NCBI GenBank assembly: GCA_026874595.1
Contig: CM049314.1
Span: 52,683,812 to 52,747,811 of the forward strand
Direction: 5' to 3'
Length of the DNA stretch: 64,000 nt
Source: Sipunculus nudus
Lineage: Eukaryota; Annelida; Sipuncula; Golfingiida; Sipunculidae
Below, piece after piece: positions 21,731-64,000 of the stretch (its first letter is position 1; every line of letters begins with the position of its first letter). The notes under the pieces were generated by a model. That model worked only from the letters and a program-made list of their open reading frames with translations. It was not told the origin of the DNA and searched no databases. The translations under genes were made by a program, and so were the position numbers.

Positions 21731-22915
21731 CACCAGCAGAGCTGCTGGCCAAATGACGGATTCTTTGAAAAAGAATCATAACAATTCTCCACACAGAAAG
21801 GTTCATGTTCACACCAGCACAGCTGCTGGCCAAATAACTGAATCTTGCCAGAAGAATCATAACCATTCTCCACACAGAAAGGTTCATGTTCACACCAGCA
21901 CAGCTGCTGGCCAAATGACGGATTCTTTGAAGAAGAATCATAACAATTCTCCACACAGAAAGGTTCATGTTCACACCAGCACAGCTGCTGGCCAAATGAC
22001 TGAATCTTGCCAGAAGAATCATAACAATTCTCCACACAGAAAGGTTCATGTTCACACCAGCACAGCTGCTGGCCAAATGACTGAATCTTGCCAGAAGAAT
22101 CATAAAAATTCTCCACACAGAAAGGTTCATGTTCACACCAGCACAGCTGCTGGCCAAATGACGATTTCTTTCAAGAAGAATCATTACTATTCTCCACACA
22201 GAAAGGTTCATGTTCACACCAGCACAGCTGCTGGCCAAATGACTGAATCTTGCCAGAAGAATCATAACAATTCTCCACACAGAAAAGTTCATGTTCACAC
22301 CCATCACAACTGCTGGCCAAATGACTGAATCTTGCCAGAAGAATCATAACAATTCTCCACACAGAAAGGTTCATGTTCACACCAGCACAGTTGCTGGCCA
22401 AATGACGATTTCTTTCAAGAAGTTTCATAACAATAATTCTTAGCACAGAAAGGTTCATGTTCACACCAGCACAGCTGCTGGCCAAATGACGGATTCTTTC
22501 AAGAAGTTTCATAACAATTCTCCACACAGAAAGGTTCATGTTCACACCAGCACAGCTGCTGGCCAAATGACGAATTCTTTCAAGAAGAATCATAACAATT
22601 CTCCACACAGAAAGGTTCATGTTCACACCAGCACAGCTGCTGGCCAAATGACGGATTATTTGAAAAAGAATCATAACAATTCTCCACACAGAAAGGTTCA
22701 TGTTCACACCAGCACAGCTGCTGGCCAAATGACTGAATCTTGCCAGAAGAATCATAACCATTCTCCACACAGAAAGGTTCATGTTCACACTAGCACAGCT
22801 GCTGGCCAAATGACGGATTCTTTGAAGAAGAATCATAACAATTCTCCACACAGAAAGGTTCATGTTCACACCAGCACAGCTGCTGGCCAAATGACTGAAT
22901 CTTGCCAGAAGAATC

Positions 22916-25900
22916 ATAACAATTCTCCACACAGAAAGGTTCATGTTCACACCAGCACAGCTGCTGGCCAAATGACTGAATCTTGCCAGAAGAATCATAA
23001 CAATTCTCCACACAGAAAGGTTCATGTTCACACCAGCACAGCTGCTGGCCAAATGACTGAATCTTGCCAGAAGAATCAAAACCATTCTCCAGACAGAAAG
23101 GTTCATGTTCACACCAGCAGACCTGCTGGCCAAATGACGGAATCTTGCAAAAAGAATCATAACAATTCTCCACACAGAAAGGTTCATGTTCACACCAGCA
23201 CAGCTGCTGGCCAAATGACTGAATCTTTCCAGAAGAATCATAACAATTCTCCACACAGAAAGGTTCATGTTCACACCAGCACAGCTGCTGGCCAAATGAC
23301 TGAATCTTGCCAGAAGAATCAAAACCATTCTCCAGACAGAAAGGTTCATGTTCACACCAGCAGACCTGCTGGCCAAATGACGGAATCTTGCAAAAAAAAT
23401 CATAACAATTCTCCACACAGAAAGGTTCATGTTCACACCAGCACAGCTGCTGGCCAAATGACTGAATCTTGCAAGAAGAATCAAAACCATTCTCCACACA
23501 GAAAGGTTCATGTTCACACCAGCAGACCTGCTGGCCAAATGACGGAATCTTGCAAAAAGAATCAAAACCATTCTCCAGACAGAAAGGTTCATGTTCACAC
23601 CAGCAGACCTGCTGGCCAAATGACGGAATCTTGCAAAAAGAATCATAACAATTCTCCACACAGAAAGGTTCATGTTCACACCAGCACAGCTGCTGGCCAA
23701 ATGACTGAATCTTGCCAGAAGAATCATAACAATTCTCCACACAGAAAGGTTCATGTTCACACCAGCACAGCTGCTGGCCAAATGACTGAATCTTGCCAGA
23801 AGAATAAAAAACCATTCTCCAGACAGAAAGGTTCATGTTCACACCAGCAGAGCTGCTGGCCAAATGACTGAATCTTGCCAGAAGAATTATAACAATTCTC
23901 CACACAGAAAGGTTCATGTTTTACACCAGCACAGCTGCTGGCCAAATGACTGATTCTTTGAAGAAGAATCATAACAATTCTCCACACAAAAAGGTTCATG
24001 TTCACACCAGCACAGCTGCTGGCCAAATGACTGAATCTTTCCAGAAGAATCATAACAATTCTCCACACAGAAAGGTTCATGTTCACACCAGCACAGCTGC
24101 TGGCCAAATGACGGATTCTTTGAAGAAGAATCATAACAATTCTCCACACAGAACGGTTCATGTTCACACCAGCAGAGCTGCTGGCCAAATGACTGAATCT
24201 TGCCAGAAGAAACATTACCATTCTCCACACAAAAAGGTTCATGTTCACACCAGCACAGCTGCTGGCCAAATGACGGAATCTTGCAAAAATAATCAAAACC
24301 ATTCTCCAGACAGAAAGGTTCATGTTCACACCAGCAGACCTGCTGGCCAAATGACGGAATCTTGCAAAAAGAATCATAACAGTTCTCCACACAGGAAGGT
24401 TCATGTTCACACCAGCACAGCTGCTGGCCAAATGACGGATTCTTTCAAGAAGAATCATAACAATTCTCCACACAGAAAGGTTCATGTTCACACCAGCAGA
24501 GCTGCTGGCCAAATGACTGAATCTTGCCAGAAGAATCATAACAATTCTCCACACAGAAAGGTTCATGTTTTACACCAGCACAGCTGCTGGCCAAATGACT
24601 GATTCTTTGAAGAAGAATCATAACAATTCTCCACACAGAAAGGTTCATGTTCATACCAGCACAGCTGCTGGCCAAATGACTGAATCTTGCCAGAAGAATC
24701 ATAACAATTCTCCACACAGAAAGGTTCATGTTCACACCAGCACAGCTGCTGGCCAAATGACGGATTCTTTGAAGAAGAATCATAACAATTCTCCACACAG
24801 AAAGGTTCATGTTCACACCAGCACAGCTGCTGGCCAAATGACGGATTCTTTCAAGAAGTTTCATAACAATAATTCTTAGCACAGAAAGGTTCATGTTCAC
24901 ACCAGCAGAGCTGCTGGCCAAATGACTGAATCTTGCCAGAAGAAACAATACCATTCTCCACACAGAAAGGTTCATGTTCACACCGACACAGCTACTGGCC
25001 AAATTACGATTTCTTTCAAGAAGAATCATAACAATTCTCCACACAGAAAGGTTCATGTTCACACCAGCACAGCTGCTGGCCAAATGACTGAATCTTGCCA
25101 GAAGAATCATAACAATTCTCCACACAGAAAGGTTCATGTTCACACCAGCACAGCTGCTGGCCAAATGACTGAATCTTGCCAGAAGAATCATAACCATTCT
25201 CCAGACAGAAAGGTTCATGTTCACACCAGCAGACCTGCTGGCCAAATGACGGAATCTTGCAAAAAAAAATCATAACAATTCTCCACACAGAAAGGTTCAT
25301 GTTCACACCAGCACAGCTGCTGGCCAAATGACTGAATCTTGCCAGAAGAATCAAAACCATTCTCCACACAGAAAGGTTCATGTTCACACCAGCAGACCTG
25401 CTGGCCAAATGACGGAATCTTGCAAAAAGAATCAAAACCATTCTCCAGACAGAAAGGTTCATGTTCACACCAGCAGACCTGCTGGCCAAATGACGGAATC
25501 TTGCAAAAAGAATCATAACAATTCTCCACACAGAAAGGTTCATGTTCACACCAGCACAGCTGCTGGCCAAATGACTGAATCTTGCCAGAAGAATCATAAC
25601 AATTCTCCACACAGAAAGGTTCATGTTCACACCAGCACAGCTGCTGACCAAATGACTGAATCTTGCCAGAAGAATAAAAAACCATTCTCCAGACAGAAAG
25701 GTTCATGTTCACACCAGCAGAGCTGCTGGCCAAATGACTGAATCTTGCCAGAAGAATCATAACAATTCTCCACACAGAAAGGTTCATGTTCACACCAGCA
25801 CAGCTGCTGACCAAATGACTGAATCTTGCCAGAAGAATAAAAAACCATTCTCCAGACAGAAAGGTTCATGTTCACACCAGCAGAGCTGCTGGCCAAATGA

Positions 25901-28900
25901 CTGAATCTTGCCAGAAGAATTATAACAATTCTCCACACAGAAAGGTTCATGTTTTACACCAGCACAGCTGCTGACCAAATGACTGATTCTTTGAAGAAGA
26001 ATCATAACAATTCTCCACACAAAAAGGTTCATGTTCACACCAGCACAGCTGCTGGCCAAATGACTGAATCTTGCCAGAAGAATCATAACAATTCTCCACA
26101 CAGAAAGGTTCATGTTCACACCAGCACAGCTGCTGGCCAAATGACGGATTCTTTGAAGAAGAATCATAACAATTCTCCACACAGAAAGGTTCATGTTCAC
26201 ACCAGCACAGCTGCTGGCCAAATGACGGATTCTTTCAAGAAGTTTCATAACAATAATTCTTAGCACAGAAAGGTTCATGTTCACACCAGCAGAGCTGCTG
26301 GCCAAATGACTGAATCTTGCCAGAAGAAACAATACCATTCTCCACACAGAAAGGTTCATGTTCACACCAGCACAGCTGCTGGCCAAATGACGGATTCTTT
26401 GAAGAAGAATCATAACAATTCTCCACACAGAAAGGTTCATGTTCACACCAGCACAGCTGCTGGCCAAATGACGGATTCTTGCCAGAAGAATCATAACAAT
26501 TCTCCACACAGAAAGGTTCATGTTCACACAAGCACAGCTGCTGGCTAAATGACGATTTCTTTCAAGAAGAATCATAACAATTCTCCACACAGAAAGGTTC
26601 ATGTTCACACCAGCACAGCTGCTGGCCAAATGACTGAATCTTGCCAGAAGAATCATAACAATTCTCGACAAAGAAAGGTTCATGTTCACACCAGCACAGC
26701 TGCTGGCCAAATGACATATTCTTCCAAGAAGAATCATAACAATTCTCCACACAGAAAGGTTCATGTTAACACCAGCACAACTGCTGGCCAAATGACATAT
26801 TCTTCCAAGAAGAATCATAACAATTCTCCACACAGAAAGGTTCATGTTCACACCAGCACAGCTGCTGGCCAAATGACGGATTCTTTGAAGAAGAATCATA
26901 ACAATTCTCCACACAGAAAGGTTCATGTTCATACCAGCACAGCTGCTGGCCAAATGACTGAATCTTGCCAGAAGAATCATAACAATTCTCCACACAGAAA
27001 GGTTCATGTTCACACCAGCACAGCTGCTGGCCAAATGACGGATTCTTTGAAGAAGAATCATAACAATTCTCCACAGAGAAAGGTTCATGTTCACACACGC
27101 AGACCTGCTGGCCAAATGACTGAATCTTGCCAGAAGAATCATAACAATTCTCCACAAAGAAAGGTTCATGTCACACCAGCAGAGCTGCTGGCCAACAAAC
27201 GGATTCTTCGAAGAAGAATCATAACAATTCTCCACACAGAAAGGTTCATGTTCACAACAGCACAGCTGCTGGCCAAATGACGGATTCTTTGAAGAAGAAT
27301 TATAACAATTCTCCACACAGAAAGGTTCATGTTCACACCAGCACAGCTGCTGGCCAAATGACGGATTCTTTGAAGAAGAATCATAACAATTCTCCACACA
27401 GAAAGGTTCATGTTCACACGATCAGAGCTGCTGGCCAAATGACTGAATCTTGCCAGAAGAATCATAACAATTCTCCACACAGAAAGGTTCATGTTTTACA
27501 CCAGCACAGCTGCTGGCCAAATGACTGATTCTTTGAAGAAGAATCATAACAATTGTCCACACAGAAAGGTTCATGTTCACACCGGCACAGCTGCTGGCCA
27601 AATGACTGAATCTTGCCAGAAGAATCATAACAATTCTCCACACAGAAAGGTTCATGTTCACACCAGCACAGCTGCTGGCCAAATGACGGATTCTTTGAAG
27701 AAGAATCATAACAATTCTCCACACAGAAAGGTTCATGTTCACACCAGCACAGCTGCTTGCCAAATGACGGATTCTTTCAAGAAGGTTCATAACAATTCTC
27801 CACACAGAAAGGTTCATGTTCACACCAGCACAGCTGCTGGCCAAATGACTGAATCTTGCCAGAAGAATCATAACAATTCTCCACACAGAAAGGTTCATGT
27901 TCACACCAGCACAGCTGCTGGCCAAATGACGGATTCTTTGAAGAAGAATCATAACAATTCTCCACAGAGAAAGGTTCATGTTCACACACGCAGACCTGCT
28001 GGCCAAATGACTGAATCTTGCCAGAAGAATCATAACAATTCTCCACAAAGAAAGGTTCATGTCACACCAGCAGAGCTGCTGGCCAACAAACGGATTCTTC
28101 GAAGAAGAATCATAACAATTCTCCACACAGAAAGGTTCATGTTCACAACAGCACAGCTGCTGGCCAAATGACGGATTCTTTGAAGAAGAATTATAACAAT
28201 TCTCCACACAGAAAGGTTCATGTTCACACCAGCACAGCTGCTGGCCAAATGACGGATTCTTTGAAGAAGAATCATAACAATTCTCCACACAGAAAGGTTC
28301 ATGTTCACACGATCAGAGCTGCTGGCCAAATGACTGAATCTTGCCAGAAGAATCATAACAATTCTCCACACAGAAAGGTTCATGTTTTACACCAGCACAG
28401 CTGCTGGCCAAATGACTGATTCTTTGAAGAAGAATCATAACAATTGTCCACACAGAAAGGTTCATGTTCACACCAGCACAGCTGCTGGCCAAATGACTGA
28501 ATCTTGCCAGAAGAATCATAACAATTCTCCACACAGAAAGGTTCATGTTCACACCAGCACAGCTGCTGGCCAAATGACGGATTCTTTGAAGAAGAATCAT
28601 AACAATTCTCCACACAGAAAGGTTCATGTTCACACCAGCACAGCTGCTTGCCAAATGACGGATTCTTTCAAGAAGGTTCATAACAATTCTCCACACAGAA
28701 AGGTTCATGTTCACACCAGCACAGCTGCTGGCCAAATGACTGAATCTTGCCAGAAGAAACATTACCATTCTCCACACAGAAAGGTTCATGTTCACACCAG
28801 CACAGCTGCTGGCCAAATGACGGATTCTTTGAAGAAGAATCATAACAATTCTCCACACAGAAAGGTTCATGTTCACACCGGCACAGCTACTGGCCAAATT

Positions 28901-29084
28901 ACGATTTCTTTCAAGAAGAATCATAACAATTCTCCACACAGAAAGGTTCATGTTCACACCAGCACAGCTGCTGGCCAAATGACTGAATCTTGCCAGAAGA
29001 ATCATAACAATTCTCCACACAGAAAGGTTCATGTTCACACCAGCACAGCTGCTGGCCAAATGACGATTTCTTTCAAGAAGTTTC
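22916..29084 (+). repeat. 76-mer higher-order repeat, copy 1 (6,169 bp)
   Basis: This is the first of three tandem copies. Length variants inside are three AATAAAAAACC units (+1 each), five TTTTACACC units (+1 each), two TAG units (+3 each), one A9 unit (+1) and two GTCACACC units (-1 each). They sum to +13, and 76 x 81 + 13 = 6,169, the observed offset. It differs from copies 2 and 3 by at least ACCGACACA at about 24,983 (ACCGGCACA elsewhere) and AAGAAGAATC near 26,728 (AAGAAAAATC elsewhere). Start and end are set where homology with the following copy begins. Confidence 0.92.
26950..28731 (+). repeat. 11-mer duplication, 891 bp x 2
   Basis: Two tandem blocks with offset exactly 891 bp (11 x 81) each contain one GTCACACC unit (-1) and, four monomers later, one TTTTACACC unit (+1), so the block length is balanced. 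The pair is carried inside each 6,169-bp repeat and in later duplications, near 33.1-34.9, 39.3-41.0, 50.0-51.8 and 57.9-59.7 kb. Confidence 0.9.
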
Positions 29085-32000
29085 ATAACAATTCTCCACA
29101 CAGAAAGGTTCATGTTCACACCAGCACAGCTGCTGGCCAAATGACTGAATCTTGCCAGAAGAATCATAACAATTCTCCACACAGAAAGGTTCATGTTCAC
29201 ACCAGCACAGCTGCTGGCCAAATGACTGAATCTTGCCAGAAGAATCAAAACCATTCTCCAGACAGAAAGGTTCATGTTCACACCAGCAGACCTGCTGGCC
29301 AAATGACGGAATCTTGCAAAAAGAATCATAACAATTCTCCACACAGAAAGGTTCATGTTCACACCAGCACAGCTGCTGGCCAAATGACTGAATCTTTCCA
29401 GAAGAATCATAACAATTCTCCACACAGAAAGGTTCATGTTCACACCAGCACAGCTGCTGGCCAAATGACTGAATCTTGCCAGAAGAATCAAAACCATTCT
29501 CCAGACAGAAAGGTTCATGTTCACACCAGCAGACCTGCTGGCCAAATGACGGAATCTTGCAAAAAAAATCATAACAATTCTCCACACAGAAAGGTTCATG
29601 TTCACACCAGCACAGCTGCTGGCCAAATGACTGAATCTTGCAAGAAGAATCAAAACCATTCTCCACACAGAAAGGTTCATGTTCACACCAGCAGACCTGC
29701 TGGCCAAATGACGGAATCTTGCAAAAAGAATCAAAACCATTCTCCAGACAGAAAGGTTCATGTTCACACCAGCAGACCTGCTGGCCAAATGACGGAATCT
29801 TGCAAAAAGAATCATAACAATTCTCCACACAGAAAGGTTCATGTTCACACCAGCACAGCTGCTGGCCAAATGACTGAATCTTGCCAGAAGAATCATAACA
29901 ATTCTCCACACAGAAAGGTTCATGTTCACACCAGCACAGCTGCTGGCCAAATGACTGAATCTTGCCAGAAGAATAAAAAACCATTCTCCAGACAGAAAGG
30001 TTCATGTTCACACCAGCAGAGCTGCTGGCCAAATGACTGAATCTTGCCAGAAGAATTATAACAATTCTCCACACAGAAAGGTTCATGTTTTACACCAGCA
30101 CAGCTGCTGGCCAAATGACTGATTCTTTGAAGAAGAATCATAACAATTCTCCACACAAAAAGGTTCATGTTCACACCAGCACAGCTGCTGGCCAAATGAC
30201 TGAATCTTTCCAGAAGAATCATAACAATTCTCCACACAGAAAGGTTCATGTTCACACCAGCACAGCTGCTGGCCAAATGACGGATTCTTTGAAGAAGAAT
30301 CATAACAATTCTCCACACAGAACGGTTCATGTTCACACCAGCAGAGCTGCTGGCCAAATGACTGAATCTTGCCAGAAGAAACATTACCATTCTCCACACA
30401 AAAAGGTTCATGTTCACACCAGCACAGCTGCTGGCCAAATGACGGAATCTTGCAAAAATAATCAAAACCATTCTCCAGACAGAAAGGTTCATGTTCACAC
30501 CAGCAGACCTGCTGGCCAAATGACGGAATCTTGCAAAAAGAATCATAACAGTTCTCCACACAGGAAGGTTCATGTTCACACCAGCACAGCTGCTGGCCAA
30601 ATGACGGATTCTTTCAAGAAGAATCATAACAATTCTCCACACAGAAAGGTTCATGTTCACACCAGCAGAGCTGCTGGCCAAATGACTGAATCTTGCCAGA
30701 AGAATCATAACAATTCTCCACACAGAAAGGTTCATGTTTTACACCAGCACAGCTGCTGGCCAAATGACTGATTCTTTGAAGAAGAATCATAACAATTCTC
30801 CACACAGAAAGGTTCATGTTCATACCAGCACAGCTGCTGGCCAAATGACTGAATCTTGCCAGAAGAATCATAACAATTCTCCACACAGAAAGGTTCATGT
30901 TCACACCAGCACAGCTGCTGGCCAAATGACGGATTCTTTGAAGAAGAATCATAACAATTCTCCACACAGAAAGGTTCATGTTCACACCAGCACAGCTGCT
31001 GGCCAAATGACGGATTCTTTCAAGAAGTTTCATAACAATAATTCTTAGCACAGAAAGGTTCATGTTCACACCAGCAGAGCTGCTGGCCAAATGACTGAAT
31101 CTTGCCAGAAGAAACAATACCATTCTCCACACAGAAAGGTTCATGTTCACACCGGCACAGCTACTGGCCAAATTACGATTTCTTTCAAGAAGAATCATAA
31201 CAATTCTCCACACAGAAAGGTTCATGTTCACACCAGCACAGCTGCTGGCCAAATGACTGAATCTTGCCAGAAGAATCATAACAATTCTCCACACAGAAAG
31301 GTTCATGTTCACACCAGCACAGCTGCTGGCCAAATGACTGAATCTTGCCAGAAGAATCATAACCATTCTCCAGACAGAAAGGTTCATGTTCACACCAGCA
31401 GACCTGCTGGCCAAATGACGGAATCTTGCAAAAAAAAATCATAACAATTCTCCACACAGAAAGGTTCATGTTCACACCAGCACAGCTGCTGGCCAAATGA
31501 CTGAATCTTGCCAGAAGAATCAAAACCATTCTCCACACAGAAAGGTTCATGTTCACACCAGCAGACCTGCTGGCCAAATGACGGAATCTTGCAAAAAGAA
31601 TCAAAACCATTCTCCAGACAGAAAGGTTCATGTTCACACCAGCAGACCTGCTGGCCAAATGACGGAATCTTGCAAAAAGAATCATAACAATTCTCCACAC
31701 AGAAAGGTTCATGTTCACACCAGCACAGCTGCTGGCCAAATGACTGAATCTTGCCAGAAGAATCATAACAATTCTCCACACAGAAAGGTTCATGTTCACA
31801 CCAGCACAGCTGCTGACCAAATGACTGAATCTTGCCAGAAGAATAAAAAACCATTCTCCAGACAGAAAGGTTCATGTTCACACCAGCAGAGCTGCTGGCC
31901 AAATGACTGAATCTTGCCAGAAGAATCATAACAATTCTCCACACAGAAAGGTTCATGTTCACACCAGCACAGCTGCTGACCAAATGACTGAATCTTGCCA

Positions 32001-35000
32001 GAAGAATAAAAAACCATTCTCCAGACAGAAAGGTTCATGTTCACACCAGCAGAGCTGCTGGCCAAATGACTGAATCTTGCCAGAAGAATTATAACAATTC
32101 TCCACACAGAAAGGTTCATGTTTTACACCAGCACAGCTGCTGACCAAATGACTGATTCTTTGAAGAAGAATCATAACAATTCTCCACACAAAAAGGTTCA
32201 TGTTCACACCAGCACAGCTGCTGGCCAAATGACTGAATCTTGCCAGAAGAATCATAACAATTCTCCACACAGAAAGGTTCATGTTCACACCAGCACAGCT
32301 GCTGGCCAAATGACGGATTCTTTGAAGAAGAATCATAACAATTCTCCACACAGAAAGGTTCATGTTCACACCAGCACAGCTGCTGGCCAAATGACGGATT
32401 CTTTCAAGAAGTTTCATAACAATAATTCTTAGCACAGAAAGGTTCATGTTCACACCAGCAGAGCTGCTGGCCAAATGACTGAATCTTGCCAGAAGAAACA
32501 ATACCATTCTCCACACAGAAAGGTTCATGTTCACACCAGCACAGCTGCTGGCCAAATGACGGATTCTTTGAAGAAGAATCATAACAATTCTCCACACAGA
32601 AAGGTTCATGTTCACACCAGCACAGCTGCTGGCCAAATGACGGATTCTTGCCAGAAGAATCATAACAATTCTCCACACAGAAAGGTTCATGTTCACACAA
32701 GCACAGCTGCTGGCTAAATGACGATTTCTTTCAAGAAGAATCATAACAATTCTCCACACAGAAAGGTTCATGTTCACACCAGCACAGCTGCTGGCCAAAT
32801 GACTGAATCTTGCCAGAAGAATCATAACAATTCTCGACAAAGAAAGGTTCATGTTCACACCAGCACAGCTGCTGGCCAAATGACATATTCTTCCAAGAAA
32901 AATCATAACAATTCTCCACACAGAAAGGTTCATGTTAACACCAGCACAACTGCTGGCCAAATGACATATTCTTCCAAGAAGAATCATAACAATTCTCCAC
33001 ACAGAAAGGTTCATGTTCACACCAGCACAGCTGCTGGCCAAATGACGGATTCTTTGAAGAAGAATCATAACAATTCTCCACACAGAAAGGTTCATGTTCA
33101 TACCAGCACAGCTGCTGGCCAAATGACTGAATCTTGCCAGAAGAATCATAACAATTCTCCACACAGAAAGGTTCATGTTCACACCAGCACAGCTGCTGGC
33201 CAAATGACGGATTCTTTGAAGAAGAATCATAACAATTCTCCACAGAGAAAGGTTCATGTTCACACACGCAGACCTGCTGGCCAAATGACTGAATCTTGCC
33301 AGAAGAATCATAACAATTCTCCACAAAGAAAGGTTCATGTCACACCAGCAGAGCTGCTGGCCAACAAACGGATTCTTCGAAGAAGAATCATAACAATTCT
33401 CCACACAGAAAGGTTCATGTTCACAACAGCACAGCTGCTGGCCAAATGACGGATTCTTTGAAGAAGAATTATAACAATTCTCCACACAGAAAGGTTCATG
33501 TTCACACCAGCACAGCTGCTGGCCAAATGACGGATTCTTTGAAGAAGAATCATAACAATTCTCCACACAGAAAGGTTCATGTTCACACGATCAGAGCTGC
33601 TGGCCAAATGACTGAATCTTGCCAGAAGAATCATAACAATTCTCCACACAGAAAGGTTCATGTTTTACACCAGCACAGCTGCTGGCCAAATGACTGATTC
33701 TTTGAAGAAGAATCATAACAATTGTCCACACAGAAAGGTTCATGTTCACACCGGCACAGCTGCTGGCCAAATGACTGAATCTTGCCAGAAGAATCATAAC
33801 AATTCTCCACACAGAAAGGTTCATGTTCACACCAGCACAGCTGCTGGCCAAATGACGGATTCTTTGAAGAAGAATCATAACAATTCTCCACACAGAAAGG
33901 TTCATGTTCACACCAGCACAGCTGCTTGCCAAATGACGGATTCTTTCAAGAAGGTTCATAACAATTCTCCACACAGAAAGGTTCATGTTCACACCAGCAC
34001 AGCTGCTGGCCAAATGACTGAATCTTGCCAGAAGAATCATAACAATTCTCCACACAGAAAGGTTCATGTTCACACCAGCACAGCTGCTGGCCAAATGACG
34101 GATTCTTTGAAGAAGAATCATAACAATTCTCCACAGAGAAAGGTTCATGTTCACACACGCAGACCTGCTGGCCAAATGACTGAATCTTGCCAGAAGAATC
34201 ATAACAATTCTCCACAAAGAAAGGTTCATGTCACACCAGCAGAGCTGCTGGCCAACAAACGGATTCTTCGAAGAAGAATCATAACAATTCTCCACACAGA
34301 AAGGTTCATGTTCACAACAGCACAGCTGCTGGCCAAATGACGGATTCTTTGAAGAAGAATTATAACAATTCTCCACACAGAAAGGTTCATGTTCACACCA
34401 GCACAGCTGCTGGCCAAATGACGGATTCTTTGAAGAAGAATCATAACAATTCTCCACACAGAAAGGTTCATGTTCACACGATCAGAGCTGCTGGCCAAAT
34501 GACTGAATCTTGCCAGAAGAATCATAACAATTCTCCACACAGAAAGGTTCATGTTTTACACCAGCACAGCTGCTGGCCAAATGACTGATTCTTTGAAGAA
34601 GAATCATAACAATTGTCCACACAGAAAGGTTCATGTTCACACCAGCACAGCTGCTGGCCAAATGACTGAATCTTGCCAGAAGAATCATAACAATTCTCCA
34701 CACAGAAAGGTTCATGTTCACACCAGCACAGCTGCTGGCCAAATGACGGATTCTTTGAAGAAGAATCATAACAATTCTCCACACAGAAAGGTTCATGTTC
34801 ACACCAGCACAGCTGCTTGCCAAATGACGGATTCTTTCAAGAAGGTTCATAACAATTCTCCACACAGAAAGGTTCATGTTCACACCAGCACAGCTGCTGG
34901 CCAAATGACTGAATCTTGCCAGAAGAAACATTACCATTCTCCACACAGAAAGGTTCATGTTCACACCAGCACAGCTGCTGGCCAAATGACGGATTCTTTG

Positions 35001-35253
35001 AAGAAGAATCATAACAATTCTCCACACAGAAAGGTTCATGTTCACACCGGCACAGCTACTGGCCAAATTACGATTTCTTTCAAGAAGAATCATAACAATT
35101 CTCCACACAGAAAGGTTCATGTTCACACCAGCACAGCTGCTGGCCAAATGACTGAATCTTGCCAGAAGAATCATAACAATTCTCCACACAGAAAGGTTCA
35201 TGTTCACACCAGCACAGCTGCTGGCCAAATGACGATTTCTTTCAAGAAGTTTC
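29085..35253 (+). repeat. 76-mer higher-order repeat, copy 2 (6,169 bp)
   Basis: Every landmark unit lies 6,169 bp after its counterpart in copy 1: TTTTACACC units near 30085, 30734, 32118, 33660 and 34551, and TAG units ending at 31048 and 32432. Comparing the open-frame translations, I find no difference from copy 3. Confidence 0.92.
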
Positions 35254-38200
35254 ATAACAATTCTCCACACAGAAAGGTTCATGTTCACACCAGCACAGCT
35301 GCTGGCCAAATGACTGAATCTTGCCAGAAGAATCATAACAATTCTCCACACAGAAAGGTTCATGTTCACACCAGCACAGCTGCTGGCCAAATGACTGAAT
35401 CTTGCCAGAAGAATCAAAACCATTCTCCAGACAGAAAGGTTCATGTTCACACCAGCAGACCTGCTGGCCAAATGACGGAATCTTGCAAAAAGAATCATAA
35501 CAATTCTCCACACAGAAAGGTTCATGTTCACACCAGCACAGCTGCTGGCCAAATGACTGAATCTTTCCAGAAGAATCATAACAATTCTCCACACAGAAAG
35601 GTTCATGTTCACACCAGCACAGCTGCTGGCCAAATGACTGAATCTTGCCAGAAGAATCAAAACCATTCTCCAGACAGAAAGGTTCATGTTCACACCAGCA
35701 GACCTGCTGGCCAAATGACGGAATCTTGCAAAAAAAATCATAACAATTCTCCACACAGAAAGGTTCATGTTCACACCAGCACAGCTGCTGGCCAAATGAC
35801 TGAATCTTGCAAGAAGAATCAAAACCATTCTCCACACAGAAAGGTTCATGTTCACACCAGCAGACCTGCTGGCCAAATGACGGAATCTTGCAAAAAGAAT
35901 CAAAACCATTCTCCAGACAGAAAGGTTCATGTTCACACCAGCAGACCTGCTGGCCAAATGACGGAATCTTGCAAAAAGAATCATAACAATTCTCCACACA
36001 GAAAGGTTCATGTTCACACCAGCACAGCTGCTGGCCAAATGACTGAATCTTGCCAGAAGAATCATAACAATTCTCCACACAGAAAGGTTCATGTTCACAC
36101 CAGCACAGCTGCTGGCCAAATGACTGAATCTTGCCAGAAGAATAAAAAACCATTCTCCAGACAGAAAGGTTCATGTTCACACCAGCAGAGCTGCTGGCCA
36201 AATGACTGAATCTTGCCAGAAGAATTATAACAATTCTCCACACAGAAAGGTTCATGTTTTACACCAGCACAGCTGCTGGCCAAATGACTGATTCTTTGAA
36301 GAAGAATCATAACAATTCTCCACACAAAAAGGTTCATGTTCACACCAGCACAGCTGCTGGCCAAATGACTGAATCTTTCCAGAAGAATCATAACAATTCT
36401 CCACACAGAAAGGTTCATGTTCACACCAGCACAGCTGCTGGCCAAATGACGGATTCTTTGAAGAAGAATCATAACAATTCTCCACACAGAACGGTTCATG
36501 TTCACACCAGCAGAGCTGCTGGCCAAATGACTGAATCTTGCCAGAAGAAACATTACCATTCTCCACACAAAAAGGTTCATGTTCACACCAGCACAGCTGC
36601 TGGCCAAATGACGGAATCTTGCAAAAATAATCAAAACCATTCTCCAGACAGAAAGGTTCATGTTCACACCAGCAGACCTGCTGGCCAAATGACGGAATCT
36701 TGCAAAAAGAATCATAACAGTTCTCCACACAGGAAGGTTCATGTTCACACCAGCACAGCTGCTGGCCAAATGACGGATTCTTTCAAGAAGAATCATAACA
36801 ATTCTCCACACAGAAAGGTTCATGTTCACACCAGCAGAGCTGCTGGCCAAATGACTGAATCTTGCCAGAAGAATCATAACAATTCTCCACACAGAAAGGT
36901 TCATGTTTTACACCAGCACAGCTGCTGGCCAAATGACTGATTCTTTGAAGAAGAATCATAACAATTCTCCACACAGAAAGGTTCATGTTCATACCAGCAC
37001 AGCTGCTGGCCAAATGACTGAATCTTGCCAGAAGAATCATAACAATTCTCCACACAGAAAGGTTCATGTTCACACCAGCACAGCTGCTGGCCAAATGACG
37101 GATTCTTTGAAGAAGAATCATAACAATTCTCCACACAGAAAGGTTCATGTTCACACCAGCACAGCTGCTGGCCAAATGACGGATTCTTTCAAGAAGTTTC
37201 ATAACAATAATTCTTAGCACAGAAAGGTTCATGTTCACACCAGCAGAGCTGCTGGCCAAATGACTGAATCTTGCCAGAAGAAACAATACCATTCTCCACA
37301 CAGAAAGGTTCATGTTCACACCGGCACAGCTACTGGCCAAATTACGATTTCTTTCAAGAAGAATCATAACAATTCTCCACACAGAAAGGTTCATGTTCAC
37401 ACCAGCACAGCTGCTGGCCAAATGACTGAATCTTGCCAGAAGAATCATAACAATTCTCCACACAGAAAGGTTCATGTTCACACCAGCACAGCTGCTGGCC
37501 AAATGACTGAATCTTGCCAGAAGAATCATAACCATTCTCCAGACAGAAAGGTTCATGTTCACACCAGCAGACCTGCTGGCCAAATGACGGAATCTTGCAA
37601 AAAAAAATCATAACAATTCTCCACACAGAAAGGTTCATGTTCACACCAGCACAGCTGCTGGCCAAATGACTGAATCTTGCCAGAAGAATCAAAACCATTC
37701 TCCACACAGAAAGGTTCATGTTCACACCAGCAGACCTGCTGGCCAAATGACGGAATCTTGCAAAAAGAATCAAAACCATTCTCCAGACAGAAAGGTTCAT
37801 GTTCACACCAGCAGACCTGCTGGCCAAATGACGGAATCTTGCAAAAAGAATCATAACAATTCTCCACACAGAAAGGTTCATGTTCACACCAGCACAGCTG
37901 CTGGCCAAATGACTGAATCTTGCCAGAAGAATCATAACAATTCTCCACACAGAAAGGTTCATGTTCACACCAGCACAGCTGCTGACCAAATGACTGAATC
38001 TTGCCAGAAGAATAAAAAACCATTCTCCAGACAGAAAGGTTCATGTTCACACCAGCAGAGCTGCTGGCCAAATGACTGAATCTTGCCAGAAGAATCATAA
38101 CAATTCTCCACACAGAAAGGTTCATGTTCACACCAGCACAGCTGCTGACCAAATGACTGAATCTTGCCAGAAGAATAAAAAACCATTCTCCAGACAGAAA

Positions 38201-41200
38201 GGTTCATGTTCACACCAGCAGAGCTGCTGGCCAAATGACTGAATCTTGCCAGAAGAATTATAACAATTCTCCACACAGAAAGGTTCATGTTTTACACCAG
38301 CACAGCTGCTGACCAAATGACTGATTCTTTGAAGAAGAATCATAACAATTCTCCACACAAAAAGGTTCATGTTCACACCAGCACAGCTGCTGGCCAAATG
38401 ACTGAATCTTGCCAGAAGAATCATAACAATTCTCCACACAGAAAGGTTCATGTTCACACCAGCACAGCTGCTGGCCAAATGACGGATTCTTTGAAGAAGA
38501 ATCATAACAATTCTCCACACAGAAAGGTTCATGTTCACACCAGCACAGCTGCTGGCCAAATGACGGATTCTTTCAAGAAGTTTCATAACAATAATTCTTA
38601 GCACAGAAAGGTTCATGTTCACACCAGCAGAGCTGCTGGCCAAATGACTGAATCTTGCCAGAAGAAACAATACCATTCTCCACACAGAAAGGTTCATGTT
38701 CACACCAGCACAGCTGCTGGCCAAATGACGGATTCTTTGAAGAAGAATCATAACAATTCTCCACACAGAAAGGTTCATGTTCACACCAGCACAGCTGCTG
38801 GCCAAATGACGGATTCTTGCCAGAAGAATCATAACAATTCTCCACACAGAAAGGTTCATGTTCACACAAGCACAGCTGCTGGCTAAATGACGATTTCTTT
38901 CAAGAAGAATCATAACAATTCTCCACACAGAAAGGTTCATGTTCACACCAGCACAGCTGCTGGCCAAATGACTGAATCTTGCCAGAAGAATCATAACAAT
39001 TCTCGACAAAGAAAGGTTCATGTTCACACCAGCACAGCTGCTGGCCAAATGACATATTCTTCCAAGAAAAATCATAACAATTCTCCACACAGAAAGGTTC
39101 ATGTTAACACCAGCACAACTGCTGGCCAAATGACATATTCTTCCAAGAAGAATCATAACAATTCTCCACACAGAAAGGTTCATGTTCACACCAGCACAGC
39201 TGCTGGCCAAATGACGGATTCTTTGAAGAAGAATCATAACAATTCTCCACACAGAAAGGTTCATGTTCATACCAGCACAGCTGCTGGCCAAATGACTGAA
39301 TCTTGCCAGAAGAATCATAACAATTCTCCACACAGAAAGGTTCATGTTCACACCAGCACAGCTGCTGGCCAAATGACGGATTCTTTGAAGAAGAATCATA
39401 ACAATTCTCCACAGAGAAAGGTTCATGTTCACACACGCAGACCTGCTGGCCAAATGACTGAATCTTGCCAGAAGAATCATAACAATTCTCCACAAAGAAA
39501 GGTTCATGTCACACCAGCAGAGCTGCTGGCCAACAAACGGATTCTTCGAAGAAGAATCATAACAATTCTCCACACAGAAAGGTTCATGTTCACAACAGCA
39601 CAGCTGCTGGCCAAATGACGGATTCTTTGAAGAAGAATTATAACAATTCTCCACACAGAAAGGTTCATGTTCACACCAGCACAGCTGCTGGCCAAATGAC
39701 GGATTCTTTGAAGAAGAATCATAACAATTCTCCACACAGAAAGGTTCATGTTCACACGATCAGAGCTGCTGGCCAAATGACTGAATCTTGCCAGAAGAAT
39801 CATAACAATTCTCCACACAGAAAGGTTCATGTTTTACACCAGCACAGCTGCTGGCCAAATGACTGATTCTTTGAAGAAGAATCATAACAATTGTCCACAC
39901 AGAAAGGTTCATGTTCACACCGGCACAGCTGCTGGCCAAATGACTGAATCTTGCCAGAAGAATCATAACAATTCTCCACACAGAAAGGTTCATGTTCACA
40001 CCAGCACAGCTGCTGGCCAAATGACGGATTCTTTGAAGAAGAATCATAACAATTCTCCACACAGAAAGGTTCATGTTCACACCAGCACAGCTGCTTGCCA
40101 AATGACGGATTCTTTCAAGAAGGTTCATAACAATTCTCCACACAGAAAGGTTCATGTTCACACCAGCACAGCTGCTGGCCAAATGACTGAATCTTGCCAG
40201 AAGAATCATAACAATTCTCCACACAGAAAGGTTCATGTTCACACCAGCACAGCTGCTGGCCAAATGACGGATTCTTTGAAGAAGAATCATAACAATTCTC
40301 CACAGAGAAAGGTTCATGTTCACACACGCAGACCTGCTGGCCAAATGACTGAATCTTGCCAGAAGAATCATAACAATTCTCCACAAAGAAAGGTTCATGT
40401 CACACCAGCAGAGCTGCTGGCCAACAAACGGATTCTTCGAAGAAGAATCATAACAATTCTCCACACAGAAAGGTTCATGTTCACAACAGCACAGCTGCTG
40501 GCCAAATGACGGATTCTTTGAAGAAGAATTATAACAATTCTCCACACAGAAAGGTTCATGTTCACACCAGCACAGCTGCTGGCCAAATGACGGATTCTTT
40601 GAAGAAGAATCATAACAATTCTCCACACAGAAAGGTTCATGTTCACACGATCAGAGCTGCTGGCCAAATGACTGAATCTTGCCAGAAGAATCATAACAAT
40701 TCTCCACACAGAAAGGTTCATGTTTTACACCAGCACAGCTGCTGGCCAAATGACTGATTCTTTGAAGAAGAATCATAACAATTGTCCACACAGAAAGGTT
40801 CATGTTCACACCAGCACAGCTGCTGGCCAAATGACTGAATCTTGCCAGAAGAATCATAACAATTCTCCACACAGAAAGGTTCATGTTCACACCAGCACAG
40901 CTGCTGGCCAAATGACGGATTCTTTGAAGAAGAATCATAACAATTCTCCACACAGAAAGGTTCATGTTCACACCAGCACAGCTGCTTGCCAAATGACGGA
41001 TTCTTTCAAGAAGGTTCATAACAATTCTCCACACAGAAAGGTTCATGTTCACACCAGCACAGCTGCTGGCCAAATGACTGAATCTTGCCAGAAGAAACAT
41101 TACCATTCTCCACACAGAAAGGTTCATGTTCACACCAGCACAGCTGCTGGCCAAATGACGGATTCTTTGAAGAAGAATCATAACAATTCTCCACACAGAA

Positions 41201-41561
41201 AGGTTCATGTTCACACCGGCACAGCTACTGGCCAAATTACGATTTCTTTCAAGAAGAATCATAACAATTCTCCACACAGAAAGGTTCATGTTCACACCAG
41301 CACAGCTGCTGGCCAAATGACTGAATCTTGCCAGAAGAATCATAACAATTCTCCACACAGAAAGGTTCATGTTCACACCAGCACAGCTGCTGGCCAAATG
41401 ACGATTTCTTTCAAGAAGTTTCATAACAATTCTCCACACAGAAAGGTTCATGTTCACACCAGCACAGCTGCTGGCCAAATGACTGAATCTTGCCAGAAGA
41501 ATCATAACAATTCTCCACACAGAAAGGTTCATGTTCACACCAGCACAGCTGCTGGCCAAAT
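35254..41561 (+). repeat. 76-mer higher-order repeat, copy 3 (6,169 bp plus a short overhang)
   Basis: Landmarks are again offset by 6,169 bp (TTTTACACC units near 36254, 36903, 38287, 39829 and 40720). Homology with the start of copy 2 continues about 140 bp past one full period and stops near 41,561, where GACCGATTCTTTCAAG replaces the expected GACTGAATC unit. The array holds 3.02 copies. Confidence 0.92.
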
Positions 41562-44500
41562 GACCGATTCTTTCAAGAAGTTTCATAACAATTCTCCACA
41601 AAGAAAGGTTCATGTTCACACCAGCACAGCTGCTGGCCAAATGACGATTTCTTTCAAGAAGAATCAGAACTATTCTCCACACAGAGAGGTTCATGTTCAA
41701 CCAGCACAGCTGCTGGCCAAATGACTGAATCTTGCCAGAAGAATCATAACAATTCTCCACACAGAAAGGTTCATGTTCACACCAGCACAACTGCTGGCCA
41801 AATGACGGATTCTTTGAAGAAGAATCATAACAATTCTCCACACAGAAAGGTTCATGTTCACACCAGCAGAGCTGCTGGCCAAATGACGGATTCTTTCAAG
41901 AAGTTTCATAACAATTCTCCACACAGAAAGGTTCATGTTCACACCAGCACAGCTGCTGGCCAAATAACGATTTTTTTCAAGAAGAATCATAACAATTCTC
42001 CACACAGAAAGGTTCATGTTCACACCAGCACAGCTGCTGGCCAAATGACTGAATCTTGCCAGAAGAATCATAACAATTCTCCACACAGAAAGGTTCATGT
42101 TCACACCAGCACAGCTGCTGGCCAAATGACGATTTCTTTCAAGAAGTTTCATAACAATTCTCCACACAGAAAGGTTCATGTTCACACCAGCACAGCTGCT
42201 GGCCAAATGACTGAATCTTGCCAGAAGAATCATAACAATTCTCCACAAAGAAAGGTTCATGTTCACACCTAGCAGAGCTGCTGGCCAAATGACGGATTCT
42301 TTGAAGAAGAATCATAACAATTCTCCACACAGAAAGGTTCATGTTCACACCAGCACAGCTGCTGGCCAAATGACTGAATCTTGCCAGAAGAATCATAACA
42401 ATTCTCCACACAGAAAGGTTCATGTTCACACCAGCACAGCTGCTGGCCAAATGACTGAATCTTGCCAGAAGAATCATAAAAATTCTCCACACAGAAAGGT
42501 TCATGTTCACACCAGCACAGCTGCTGGCCAAATGACGATTTCTTTCAAGAAGAATCATTACTATTCTCCACACAGAAAGGTTCATGTTCACACCAGCACA
42601 GCTGCTGGCCAAATGACTGAATCTTGCCAGAAGAATCATAACAATTCTCCACACAGAAAAGTTCATGTTCACACCAGCACAACTGCTGGCCAAATGACTG
42701 AATCTTGCCAGAAGAATCATAACAATTCTCCACACAGAAAGGTTCATGTTCACACCAGCACAGTTGCTGGCCAAATGACGATTTCTTTCAAGAAGTTTCA
42801 TAACAATAATTCTTAGCACAGAAAGGTTCATGTTCACACCAGCACAGCTGCTGGCCAAATGACGGATTCTTTCAAGAAGTTTCATAACAATTCTCCACAC
42901 AGAAAGGTTCATGTTCACACCAGCACAGCTGCTGGCCAAATGACGAATTCTTTCAAGAAGAATCATAACAATTCTCCACACAGAAAGGTTCATGTTCACA
43001 CCAGCACAGCTGCTGGCCAAATGACGGATTCTTTGAAAAAGAATCATAACAATTCTCCACACAGAAAGGTTCATGTTCACACCAGCACAGCTGCTAGCCA
43101 AATGACTGAATCTTGCCAGAAGAATCATAACCATTCTCCACACAGAAAGGTTCATGTTCACACCAGCACAGCTGCTGGCCAAATGACGGATTCTTTGAAG
43201 AAGAATCATAACAATTCTCCACACAGAAAGGTTCATGTTCACACCAGCACAGCTGCTGGCCAAATGACTGAATCTTGCCAGAAGAATCATAACAATTCTC
43301 CACACAGAAAGGTTCATGTTCACACCAGCACAGCTGCTGGCCAAATGACTGAATCTTGCCAGAAGAATCATAACAATTCTCCACACAGAAAGGTTCATGT
43401 TCACACCAGCACAGCTGCTGGCCAAATGACTGAATCTTGCCAGAAGAATCAAAACCATTCTCCAGACAGAAAGGTTCATGTTCACACCAGCAGACCTGCT
43501 GGCCAAATGACTGAATCTTGCAAAAAGAATCATAACAATTCTCCACACAGAAAGGTTTATGTTCACACCAGCACAGCTGCTGGCCAAATGACTGAATCTT
43601 GCCAGAAGAATCATAACAATTCTCCACACAGAAAGGTTCATGTTCACACCAGCACAGCTGCTGGCCAAATGACTGAATCTTGCCAGAAGAATCATAACCA
43701 TTCTCCAGACAGAAAGGTTCATGTTCACACCAGCAGACCTGCTGGCCAAATGACGGAATCTTGCAAAAAAAAAATCATAACAATTCTCCACACAGAAAGG
43801 TTCATGTTCACACCAGCACAGCTGCTGGCCAAATGACTGAATCTTGCCAGAAGAATCAAAACCATTCTCCACACAGAAAGGTTCATGTTCACACCAGCAG
43901 ACCTGCTGGCCAAATGACGGAATCTTGCAAAAAGAATCAAAACCATTCTCCAGACAGAAAGGTTCATGTTCACACCAGCAGACCTGCTGGCCAAATGACG
44001 GAATCTTGCAAAAAGAATCATAACAATTCTCCACACAGAAAGGTTCATGTTCACACCAGCACAGCTGCTGGCCAAATGACTGAATCTTGCCAGAAGAAAT
44101 CATAACAATTCTCCACACAGAAAGGTTCATGTTCACACCAGCACAGCTGCTGACCAAATGACTGAATCTTGCCAGAAGAATAAAAAACCATTCTCCAGAC
44201 AGAAAGGTTCATGTTCACACCAGCAGAGCTGCTGGCCAAATGACTGAATCTTGCCAGAAGAATCATAACAATTCTCCACACAGAAAGGTTCATGTTCACA
44301 CCAGCACAGCTGCTGACCAAATGACTGAATCTTGCCAGAAGAATAAAAAACCATTCTCCAGACAGAAAGGTTCATGTTCACACCAGCAGAGCTGCTGGCC
44401 AAATGACTGAATCTTGCCAGAAGAATTATAACAATTCTCCACACAGAAAGGTTCATGTTTTACACCAGCACAGCTGCTGACCAAATGACTGATTCTTTGA

Positions 44501-47500
44501 AGAAGAATCATAACAATTCTCCACACAAAAAGGTTCATGTTCACACCAGCACAGCTGCTGGCCAAATGACTGAATCTTTCCAGAAGAATCATAACAATTC
44601 TCCACACAGAGAGGTTCATGTTCACACCAGCACAGCTGCTGGCCAAATGACGGATTCTTTGAAGAAGAATCATAACAATTCTCCACACAGAACGGTTCAT
44701 GTTCACACCAGCAGAGCTGCTGGCCAAATGACTGAATCTTGCCAGAAGAAACATTACCATTCTCCACACAAAAAGGTTCATGTTCACATCAGCACAGCTG
44801 CTGGCCAAATGACGGATTCTTTGAAGAAGAATCATAACAATTCTCCACACAGAAAGGTTCATGTTCACACCAGCACAGCTGCTGGCCAAATGACTGAATC
44901 TTGCCAGAAGAATCATAACAATTCTCCACACAGAAAGGTTCATGTTCACACCAGCACAGCTGCTGGCCAAATGACGGATTCTTTGAAGAAGAATCATAAC
45001 AATTCTCCACACAGAAAGGTTCATGTTCACACCAGCACAGCTGCTGGCCAAATGACGGATTCTTTCAAGAAGTTTCATAACAATTCTCCACACAGAAAGG
45101 TTCATGTTCACACCAGCAGAGCTGCTGGCCAAATGACTGAATCTTGCCAGAAGAAACAATACCATTCTCCACACAGAAAGGTTCATGTTCACACCAGCAC
45201 AGCTGCTGGCCAAATGACGGATTCTTTGAAGAAGAATCATAACAATTATCCACACAGAAAGGTTCATGTTCACACCAGCACAGCTGCTGGCCAAATGACG
45301 GATTCTTGCCAGAAGAATCATAACAATTCTCCACACAGAAAGGTTCATGTTCACACAAGCACAGCTGCTGGCTAAATGACGATTTCTTTCAAGAAGAATC
45401 ATAACAATTCTCCACACAGAAAGGTTCATGTTCACACCAGCACAGCTGCTGGCCAAATGACTGAATCTTGCCAGAAGAATCATAACAATTCTCGACAAAG
45501 AAAGGTTCATGTTCACACCAGCACAGCTGCTGGCCAAATGACATATTCTTCCAAGAAGAATCATAACAATTCTCCACAGAGAAAGGTTCATGTTCACACA
45601 CGCAGACCTGCTGGCCAAATGACTGAATCTTGCCAGAAGAATCATAACAATTCTCCACAAAGAAAGGTTCATGTCACACCAGCAGAGCTGCTGGCCAACA
45701 AACGGATTCTTCGAAGAAGAATCATAACAATTCTCCACACAGAAAGGTTCATGTTCACAACAGCACAGCTGCTGGCCAAATGACGGATTCTTTGAAGAAG
45801 AATTATAACAATTCTCCACACAGAAAGGTTCATGTTCACACCAGCACAGCTGCTGGCCAAATGACGGATTCTTTGAAGAAGAATCATAACAATTCTCCAC
45901 ACAGAAAGGTTCATGTTCACACCATCAGAGCTGCTGGCCAAATGACTGAATCTTGCCAGAAGAATCATAACAATTCTACACACAGAAAGGTTCATGTTTT
46001 ACACCAGCACAGCTGCTGGCCAAATGACTGATTCTTTGAAGAAGAATCATAACAATTGTCCACACAGAAAGGTTCATGTTCACACCAGCACAGCTGCTGG
46101 CCAAATGACTGAATCTTGCCAGAAGAATCATAACAATTCTCCACACAGAAAGGTTCATGTTCACACCAGCACAGCTGCTGGCCAAATGACGGATTCTTTG
46201 AAGAAGAATCATAACAATTCTCCACACAGAAAGGTTCATGTTCACACCAGCACAGCTGCTGGCCAAATGACGGATTCTTTCAAGAAGGTTCATAACAATT
46301 CTCCACACAGAAAGGTTCATGTTCACACCAGCACAGCTGCTGGCCAAATGACTGAATCTTGCCAGAAGAAACATTACCATTCTCCACACAGAAAGGTTCA
46401 TGTTCACACCAGCACAGCTGCTGGCCAAATGACGGATTCTTTGAAGAAGAATCATAACAATTCTCCACACAGAAAGGTTCATGTTCACACCGGCACAGCT
46501 ACTGGCCAAATTACGATTTCTTTCAAGAAGAATCATAACAATTCTCCACACAGAAAGGTTCATGTTCACACCAGCACAGCTGCTGGCCAAATGACTGAAT
46601 CTTGCCAGAAGAATCATAACAATTCTCCACACAGAAAGGTTCATGTTCACACCAGCACAGCTGCTGGCCAAATGACGATTTCTTTCAAGAAGTTTCATAA
46701 CAATTCTCCACACAGAAAGGTTCATGTTCACACCAGCACAGCTGCTGGCCAAATGACTGAATCTTGCCAGAAGAATCATAACCATTCTCCACACAGAAAG
46801 GTTCATGTTCACACCAGCACAGCTGCTGGCCAAATGACTGAATCTTGCCAGAAGAATCATAACAATTCTCGACAAAGAAAGGTTCATGTTCACACCAGCA
46901 CAGCTGCTGGCCAAATGACATATTCTTCCAAGAAGAATCATAACAATTCTCCACACAGAAAGGTTCATGTTAACACCAGCACAACTGCTGGCCAAATGAC
47001 ATATTCTTCCAAGAAGAATCATAACAATTCTCCACACAGAAAGGTTCATGTTCACACCAGCACAGCTGCTGGCCAAATGACGGATTCTTTGAAGAAGAAT
47101 CATAACAATTCTCCACACAGAAAGGTTCATGTTCATACCAGCACAGCTGCTGGCCAAATGACTGAATCTTGCCAGAAGAATCATAACAATTCTCCACACA
47201 GAAAGGTTCATGTTCACACCAGCACAGCTGCTGGCCAAATGACGGATTCTTTGAAGAAGAATCATAACAATTCTCCACAGAGAAAGGTTCATGTTCACAT
47301 TCGCAGACCTGCTGGCCAAATGACTGAATCTTGCCAGAAGAATCATAACAATTCTCCACAAAGAAAGGTTCATGTCACACCAGCAGAGCTGCTGGCCAAC
47401 AAACGGATTCTTCGAAGAAGAATCATAACAATTCTCCACACAGAAAGGTTCATGTTCACAACAGCACAGCTGCTGGCCAAATGACGGATTCTTTGAAGAA

Positions 47501-48084
47501 GAATTATAACAATTCTCCACACAGAAAGGTTCATGTTCACACCAGCACAGCTGCTGGCCAAATGACGGATTCTTTGAAGAAGAATCATAACAATTCTCCA
47601 CACAGAAAGGTTCATGTTCACACGATCAGAGCTGCTGGCCAAATGACTGAATCTTGCCAGAAGAATCATAACAATTCTCCACACAGAAAGGTTCATGTTT
47701 TACACCAGCACAGCTGCTGGCCAAATGACTGATTCTTTGAAGAAGAATCATAACAATTGTCCACACAGAAAGGTTCATGTTCACACCGGCACAGCTGCTG
47801 GCCAAATGACTGAATCTTGCCAGAAGAATCATAACAATTCTCCACACAGAAAGGTTCATGTTCACACCAGCACAGCTGCTGGCCAAATGACGGATTCTTT
47901 GAAGAAGAATCATAACAATTCTCCACACAGAAAGGTTCATGTTCACACCAGCACAGCTGCTTGCCAAATGACGGATTCTTTCAAGAAGGTTCATAACAAT
48001 TCTCCACACAGAAAGGTTCATGTTCACACCAGCACAGCTGCTGGCCAAATGACTGAATCTTGCCAGAAGAATCATAACAATTCT
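38400..48084 (+). repeat. Source block of 133-mer offset duplication
   Basis: About 9.7 kb of monomer order here is found again 10,788 bp downstream (about 49,188-58,872). This includes the 11-mer pair, the CACACCTAGCAG unit, the GCTAGCCAAATG unit, the AGGTTTATG unit and the A10 unit. The offset is 133 x 81 plus a net +15. It overlaps copy 3 of the 6,169-bp repeat, so it postdates or cuts across it. Confidence 0.85.
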
Positions 48085-49187
48085 CCAGACAGAAAGGTTC
48101 ATGTTCACACCAGCAGACCTGCTGGCCAAATGACGGAATCTTGCAAAAAGAATCATAACAATTCTCCACACAGAAAGGTTCATGTTCACACCAGCACAGC
48201 TGCTGGCCAAATGACTGAATCTTGCCAGAAGAATCATAACAATTCTCCACACAGAAAGGTTCATGTTCACACCAGCACAGCTGCTGGCCAAATGACTGAA
48301 TCTTGCCAGAAGAATAAAAAACCATTCTCCAGACAGAAAGGTTCATGTTCACACCAGCAGAGCTGCTGGCCAAATGACTGAATCTTGCCAGAAGAATTAT
48401 AACAATTCTCCACACAGAAAGGTTCATGTTTTACACCAGCACAGCTGCTGGCCAAATGACTGATTCTTTGAAGAAGAATCATAACAATTCTCCACACAAA
48501 AAGGTTCATGTTCACACCAGCACAGCTGCTGGCCAAATGACTGAATCTTTCCAGAAGAATCATAACAATTCTCCACACAGAAAGGTTCATGTTCACACCA
48601 GCACAGCTGCTGGCCAAATGACGGATTCTTTGAAGAAGAATCATAACAATTCTCCACACAGAACGGTTCATGTTCACACCAGCAGAGCTGCTGGCCAAAT
48701 GACTGAATCTTGCCAGAAGAAACATTACCATTCTCCACACAAAAAGGTTCATGTTCACACCAGCACAGCTGCTGGCCAAATGACGGAATCTTGCAAAAAT
48801 AATCAAAACCATTCTCCAGACAGAAAGGTTCATGTTCACACCAGCAGACCTGCTGGCCAAATGACGGAATCTTGCAAAAAGAATCATAACAGTTCTCCAC
48901 ACAGGAAGGTTCATGTTCACACCAGCACAGCTGCTGGCCAAATGACGGATTCTTTCAAGAAGAATCATAACAATTCTCCACACAGAAAGGTTCATGTTCA
49001 CACCAGCAGAGCTGCTGGCCAAATGACTGAATCTTGCCAGAAGAATCATAACAATTCTCCACACAGAAAGGTTCATGTTTTACACCAGCACAGCTGCTGG
49101 CCAAATGACTGATTCTTTGAAGAAGAATCATAACAATTCTCCACACAGAAAGGTTCATGTTCATACCAGCACAGCTGCTGGCCAAAT

Positions 49188-63545: not shown

Positions 63546-64000
63546 GACTGAATCTTGCCAGAAGAATCAAAACCATTCTCCAGACAGAAAGGTTCATGTT
63601 CACACCAGCAGACCTGCTGGCCAAATGACGGAATCTTGCAAAAAGAATCATAACAATTCTCCACACAGAAAGGTTTATGTTCACACCAGCACAGCTGCTG
63701 GCCAAATGACTGAATCTTGCCAGAAGAATCATAACAATTCTCCACACAGAAAGGTTCATGTTCACACCAGCACAGCTGCTGGCCAAATGACTGAATCTTG
63801 CCAGAAGAATCATAACCATTCTCCAGACAGAAAGGTTCATGTTCACACCAGCAGACCTGCTGGCCAAATGACGGAATCTTGCAAAAAAAAAATCATAACA
63901 ATTCTCCACACAGAAAGGTTCATGTTCACACCAGCACAGCTGCTGGCCAAATGACTGAATCTTGCCAGAAGAATCAAAACCATTCTCCACACAGAAAGGT
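63546..64000 (+). repeat. Partial repeat of 62,082 onwards, offset 1,464 bp
   Basis: From GACTGAATC at 63,546 the monomers repeat those beginning at 62,082: an ESCQKNQ unit, an ESCKKN unit, an AGGTTTATG unit, an A10 unit and so on. The offset is 18 monomers plus 6 bp, and the block runs off the window edge. The length of this 18-mer and the number of copies cannot be seen. Confidence 0.85.

Follow-up and report, generated by a model that had tools for sequence, protein, structure and literature searches.

How has a long array of 81-bp tandem repeats in the genome of Sipunculus nudus come to contain neighbouring multi-kilobase blocks that are nearly identical to one another? For the 64,000-nucleotide stretch analysed here (hereafter, the window), the initial annotation had proposed three tandem copies of a higher-order repeat (HOR), set against those of alpha satellite and attributed to either very recent amplification or an assembly duplication. 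The array to which these copies belong is the following:

4534 to 64000 in the window and on to 78272, plus strand: 81-bp tandem array (TRF, monomer segmentation, flanks).

Segmentation of the window and its flanks (10 kb before, 40 kb after) into monomers yielded 909 full units in a single orientation, occupying ~73.7 kb between the left edge placed by TRF at 4534 and the end of the last full monomer at 78272, past the window end; this continuation had not been part of the earlier description. Neither the window nor the 50 kb of flanks contains any N letters, which has no bearing on copy number. All 909 monomers measure 80-84 bp, and none is cut short. They represent 161 distinct types, including 68 singletons, with a mean likeness of 91.9% between random pairs and 91.6% between neighbours. 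Paired stretches of 1 kb or longer, at 99% identity or above, cover 80% of the array. Self-comparison, restricted to diagonals scoring 800 or more and to offsets where an exact run reaches 400 or more, returned 121 near-identical diagonals, many of which re-describe the same blocks.

Exact self-comparison with the window shifted by 6,169 bp gave one maximal diagonal (22914-35395; 12,482 bp with 2 mismatches), so that 22914-41564 holds 3.02 tandem copies of a 76-monomer unit, i.e. three full copies and 144 bp:

22914 to 29082, plus strand: copy 1 of the 6,169-bp block (self-comparison, monomer typing).
29083 to 35251, plus strand: copy 2 of the 6,169-bp block (self-comparison, monomer typing).
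35252 to 41420, plus strand: copy 3 of the 6,169-bp block, identical to copy 2 (self-comparison).
41421 to 41564, plus strand: further perfect identity beyond copy 3, 144 bp (12,482 = 2 x 6,169 + 144).

Each copy is made up of 63 monomers of 81 bp, nine of 82 bp, two of 84 bp and two of 80 bp (n = 76), and one such 76-mer contains 41 monomer types. The three near-identical copies had been placed at 22916-41561, no more than 3 bp from our boundaries at either end; the proposed landmark offset of 6,169 bp corresponds to the single diagonal above, and the monomer lengths of each copy indeed sum to 6,169 bp, in line with the suggested unit of 76 x 81 + 13. At the nucleotide level, copies 2 and 3 show zero differences across 6,313 bp, as the annotation had said, and the "at least two" substitutions it assigned to copy 1 turn out to be exactly two, at positions 24986 (A in copy 1 vs G in copies 2 and 3) and 26731 (G vs A). 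The longest stretch over which identical monomers recur in the same order comprises 106 units, at a lag of 76, compared with a mean of 3.4 and a maximum of 5 when monomer order was permuted 200 times, which excludes a chance origin.

The two variant sites bear on the order in which the copies arose. At 24986, A is confined to copy 1, and G is found in copies 2 and 3 as well as in the paralogous positions 16383 and 49496. Conversely, at 26731 copy 1 shares its G with five paralogues (15124, 17801, 46935, 49857 and 57723), and A occupies the equivalent positions 32900 in copy 2 and 39069 in copy 3; across the array, 17 of the 909 monomers carry A at this marker column. As the two variants fall on opposite branches, the duplication looks stepwise, and on the simplest reading a first duplication would have separated copy 1 from the ancestor of copies 2 and 3, with a second producing copies 2 and 3. 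We consider this order of the two latest steps likely, with one site per branch to support it and correspondingly small numbers; gene conversion could mimic the variant pattern, shift the marker variants or have homogenised copies 2 and 3. Assuming that neutral sites change at a rate between 1e-8 and 1e-9 per site per year, 2 differences in 6,313 bp would correspond to roughly 16-160 thousand years, an estimate of recency that, like the copy number, derives from one assembly of one individual.

Of the two explanations offered at the outset, recency is supported (2 differences in 12,482 bp), with the variants pointing to two successive duplications. Copy-specific variants on both branches speak for at least two real copies. 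The third copy may still be an assembly duplication: nothing tells copy 2 from copy 3, and the 14,833 bp from 26732 to 41564 are perfectly 6,169-periodic, so that reads shorter than this stretch cannot count the copies. Perfect periodicity over 14.8 kb makes the copy number of an assembly hard to trust, and the identity of copies 2 and 3 across 6,313 bp is likewise what would be seen if the assembler had over-counted, i.e. if only copy 1 and one of copies 2 and 3 existed. However, the adjoining duplications described below do carry differences (7 in 10,788 bp and 5 in 5,998 bp), which suggests that real block duplication takes place at this locus, and we regard an over-count as unlikely, if still to be reckoned with. 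Far less probable is a false tandem duplication in which two haplotypes were joined end to end. The two single-base sites at which copy 1 departs from copies 2 and 3 could be allelic, but a joining of haplotypes by itself explains neither the presence of three copies nor a variant common to copies 2 and 3 only, and haplotypes in many outbred animals usually differ at more than 2 sites per 6,313 bp.

Several nested block duplications occur in the array, the 6,169-bp unit among them. Beyond what had been annotated, self-comparison revealed further multi-kilobase near-identical blocks, at offsets of 12,172/10,788 bp and 7,866 bp, whose units overlap the triplication or sit to its right:

35908 to 48079, plus strand: block A, 12,172-bp tandem duplication overlapping copy 3 (self-comparison).
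48080 to 58867, plus strand: block B, without 1,384 bp (17 monomers) present in A (self-comparison).
57572 to 63569, plus strand: block C, truncated repeat (the second copy) of the 7,866-bp unit that begins at 49706 (self-comparison).

Block B directly abuts block A and differs from it by 7 substitutions in 10,788 compared bases, a count that leaves out the extra 1,384 bp (17 monomers) of A. Before trimming, the diagonal at an offset of 10,788 bp shows 12 mismatches over 9,922 bp, the additional five being found towards one or the other end, beyond the part used for the A/B count. The 17 monomers absent from B are present in copies 1, 2 and 3 of the 76-mer. Block C in turn shows 5 differences in 5,998 bp from the unit starting at 49706. 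The A/B duplication and this 7,866-bp one together make up much of the window's right-hand portion. With only 2 differences in 12,482 bp, the 6,169-bp block would be younger than the A/B and B/C duplications, and blocks A, B and C would represent earlier rounds. In agreement with this order, blocks B and C retain the older G (at 49857 and 57723), which suggests that they parted from the copy lineage before the G-to-A change.

Close relatives of the monomer are found at one locus. A 32-base probe allowing up to 3 mismatches gave 850 matches genome-wide, with 850 in the array and 0 on the reverse strand; a 27-base probe at the same stringency gave 890 and 890, and an exact 27-base probe 252 genome-wide and 252 in the 114 kb of window and flanks. 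By these equal counts of genome and array, which cover relatives at up to 3 mismatches in the part of the assembly not masked by N, the monomer has no close relatives elsewhere in the genome, and the array, on contig C9, behaves as a single-locus minisatellite: a tandem array of a unit tens of bases long (81 bp, 909 monomers) at one place.

Taken together, we favour a noncoding single-locus minisatellite with an 81-bp unit that has grown, probably neutrally, by repeated in-register block duplication, a reading to which we assign a probability of roughly 0.82. Since no monomer is cut short (all 909 at 80-84 bp), each block boundary keeps the monomer register, which fits recombination between misaligned monomers. 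Offsets amounting to whole numbers of monomers had also been considered as evidence of register and were dropped, being integers by construction; the monomer lengths are the real test. We infer that sister chromatids misaligned by whole monomers and that unequal exchange then copied multi-kilobase blocks. Alternatively, break-induced replication could have restarted some monomers away and copied blocks in that manner. Both processes are discussed for satellites in PMC8122249, and their outcomes would be indistinguishable from one sequence. Under either process, the three 6,169-bp copies would be the product of the two most recent large steps, taken in succession, and the 144 bp of perfect identity could be the homology within which block exchange occurred. 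Exact runs of at least 144 bp were found for 2.5% of ~20,000 random in-register point pairs, the median run being 24 bp. At the A/B boundary, homology extends over just 36 bp with 1 mismatch, arguing that long homology is no rule at this array; A and B also differ by the 17-monomer length change.

We next consider readings that ascribe a role to the array. It might serve the neighbouring ABCC-type transporter gene as a rapidly evolving macrosatellite with a regulatory or chromatin-organising role, in which case length changes by kilobase blocks would alter expression of that gene between individuals. Our tests gave no support for function, which is not proof of its absence, and we consider such a role very improbable. 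Within the 64-kb window, no Rfam family of structured RNA reached its gathering score. Along the monomer, no uneven spread of rare or of common alleles emerged across three column groups (p = 0.81 and 0.40), groups that had been picked after column diversity was known. A hairpin, CCAGCA/TGCTGG, is intact in 766 of the 909 monomers and in 128 of the 161 types; yet its 12 columns hold 15 rare alleles, compared with 35 in the other 69, and being thus relatively richer in rare alleles, the hairpin does not look conserved.

Also hard to sustain is the proposal that the array encodes all or part of a protein built of 27-residue repeats. Admittedly, 81 bp equal 27 codons, the consensus is free of stops in one plus frame and two minus frames, and the window contains 73 open reading frames (ORFs) of at least 250 amino acids, reaching 552 on the plus and 697 on the minus strand. 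Moreover, PF25523, PF18883 and PF14709 scored above their Pfam cut-offs on two plus-strand ORFs among the four scanned of the 73. However, in a control, six reversed repeats also passed one Pfam cut-off (PF16076), with six plain forward repeats passing none; repetition evidently yields such matches, and we judge them spurious. We rejected the coding reading on two grounds: length changes do not keep the frame, which 117 of the 909 monomers shift, their lengths not being divisible by 3, and nucleotide diversity at the three codon positions (0.067, 0.091 and 0.085) follows no codon-position pattern.

The assembly comprises 1.43 Gb in 153 contigs and, given that C17 measures 61 Mb and C18 to C21 less than 0.1 Mb each (nine contigs sized), probably includes 17 chromosome-sized ones. 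The interpretation as a centromeric satellite organised in HORs like alpha satellite, suggested by tandem monomers in multi-monomer near-identical blocks, can practically be set aside. One C9 locus accounts for the probe counts, where a satellite of that kind would be expected at many or all centromeres; the end of an ABCC-type transporter gene lies ~8.5 kb from the array; and the block has three copies only. The near-identical multi-monomer unit with differing monomers that defines an HOR is present, but its copies span 18.7 of 73.7 kb and do not fill most of the array in many copies; the 76-mer is therefore not the main unit of the array, and the alpha-satellite frame of the initial annotation does not carry over to a single locus with several nested block duplications.

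Comparison with known systems places the single-locus minisatellite among familiar repeats. The nearest precedent identified is the human 61-bp VNTR of pseudoautosomal Xp22.33 (PMC2588610), which spans 18 kb, has HORs of 1.6 and 2.5 kb and has in common with the present array a short VNTR unit, irregular HORs and a complex arrangement. By description, the array reported here looks to be of the same sort but is the longer (73.7 kb), with an 81-bp unit and larger blocks (6.2, 7.9 and 12.2 kb). The human HsatII and GAATG families are multi-locus classical satellites. According to PMC2588610, HsatII on chromosome 16 and GAATG on the Y likewise have kilobase-scale HORs (~3.4-5.8 kb) over a short monomer. 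In contrast to these families, close relatives of the present monomer were found at one locus. Alpha satellite, with 171-bp monomers, is centromeric, present on many chromosomes and organised in many block copies; it, too, repeats blocks of differing monomers near-identically. Its monomers within an HOR are ~70% alike (PMC8122249), whereas ours are ~92% alike, at one locus and in three block copies. Among the titles listed by full-text searches on topics such as higher-order repeats, satellites, macrosatellites and unequal exchange, none concerned a comparable 81-bp array.

The surroundings of the array contain repeats of their own. Upstream, a second array (L005:2070-5553; about -7930 to -4447 in window coordinates) comprises 61.7 copies of 57 bp according to TRF. 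Each unit joins the last part of an ABCC-type transporter exon to its 5' splice site and the first bases of the intron, and the array sits in the intron between exons matching ABCC4 (8bjf) chain positions 1212-1245 and 1246-1293; the exon matching 1212-1245 has its best match in ABCC5. Including the exon's own, there are 60 exon-end/GT junctions, 39 of them with GTAAGT, and the exon frame stays open 242 codons into the array, which would make it a natural many-fold repetition of a predicted splice donor. A 34-bp minisatellite (11.4 copies, 95% matches) lies at 998-1385. Just left of the 81-bp array, at 4254-4404, is an interspersed repeat (40 of 55 candidates scored) with four pairs of genome matches 6.6-6.7 kb apart on the same strand, as the LTRs of a retrotransposon would be. 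To the right, L002:4299-4700 (about 78299-78700 in the window) is another, with at least 46 matches (40 of 250 candidates scored); most of the matches listed start about 100 bp in, and six pieces start 27-41 bp after the last full monomer. With regard to a transposon origin, inspection by eye of the matches listed found no other place, this locus excepted, where the left and right repeats lie within 10 kb. Further downstream, retrotransposon fragments with reverse transcriptase and integrase domains occur at L003:1763-2749 (plus strand), L003:8966-9860 (minus) and L004:861-1124 (minus), the last with a match below the Pfam cut-off.

The evolution of the 81-bp array is of an ordinary kind for repeats and calls for no new kind of system. 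It is of interest because the growth of a long tandem array can be read from its overlapping duplications of 6.2, 7.9 and 12.2 kb: variants common to several copies probably give the order of the last two steps, and 144 bp of perfect homology bound the youngest block.
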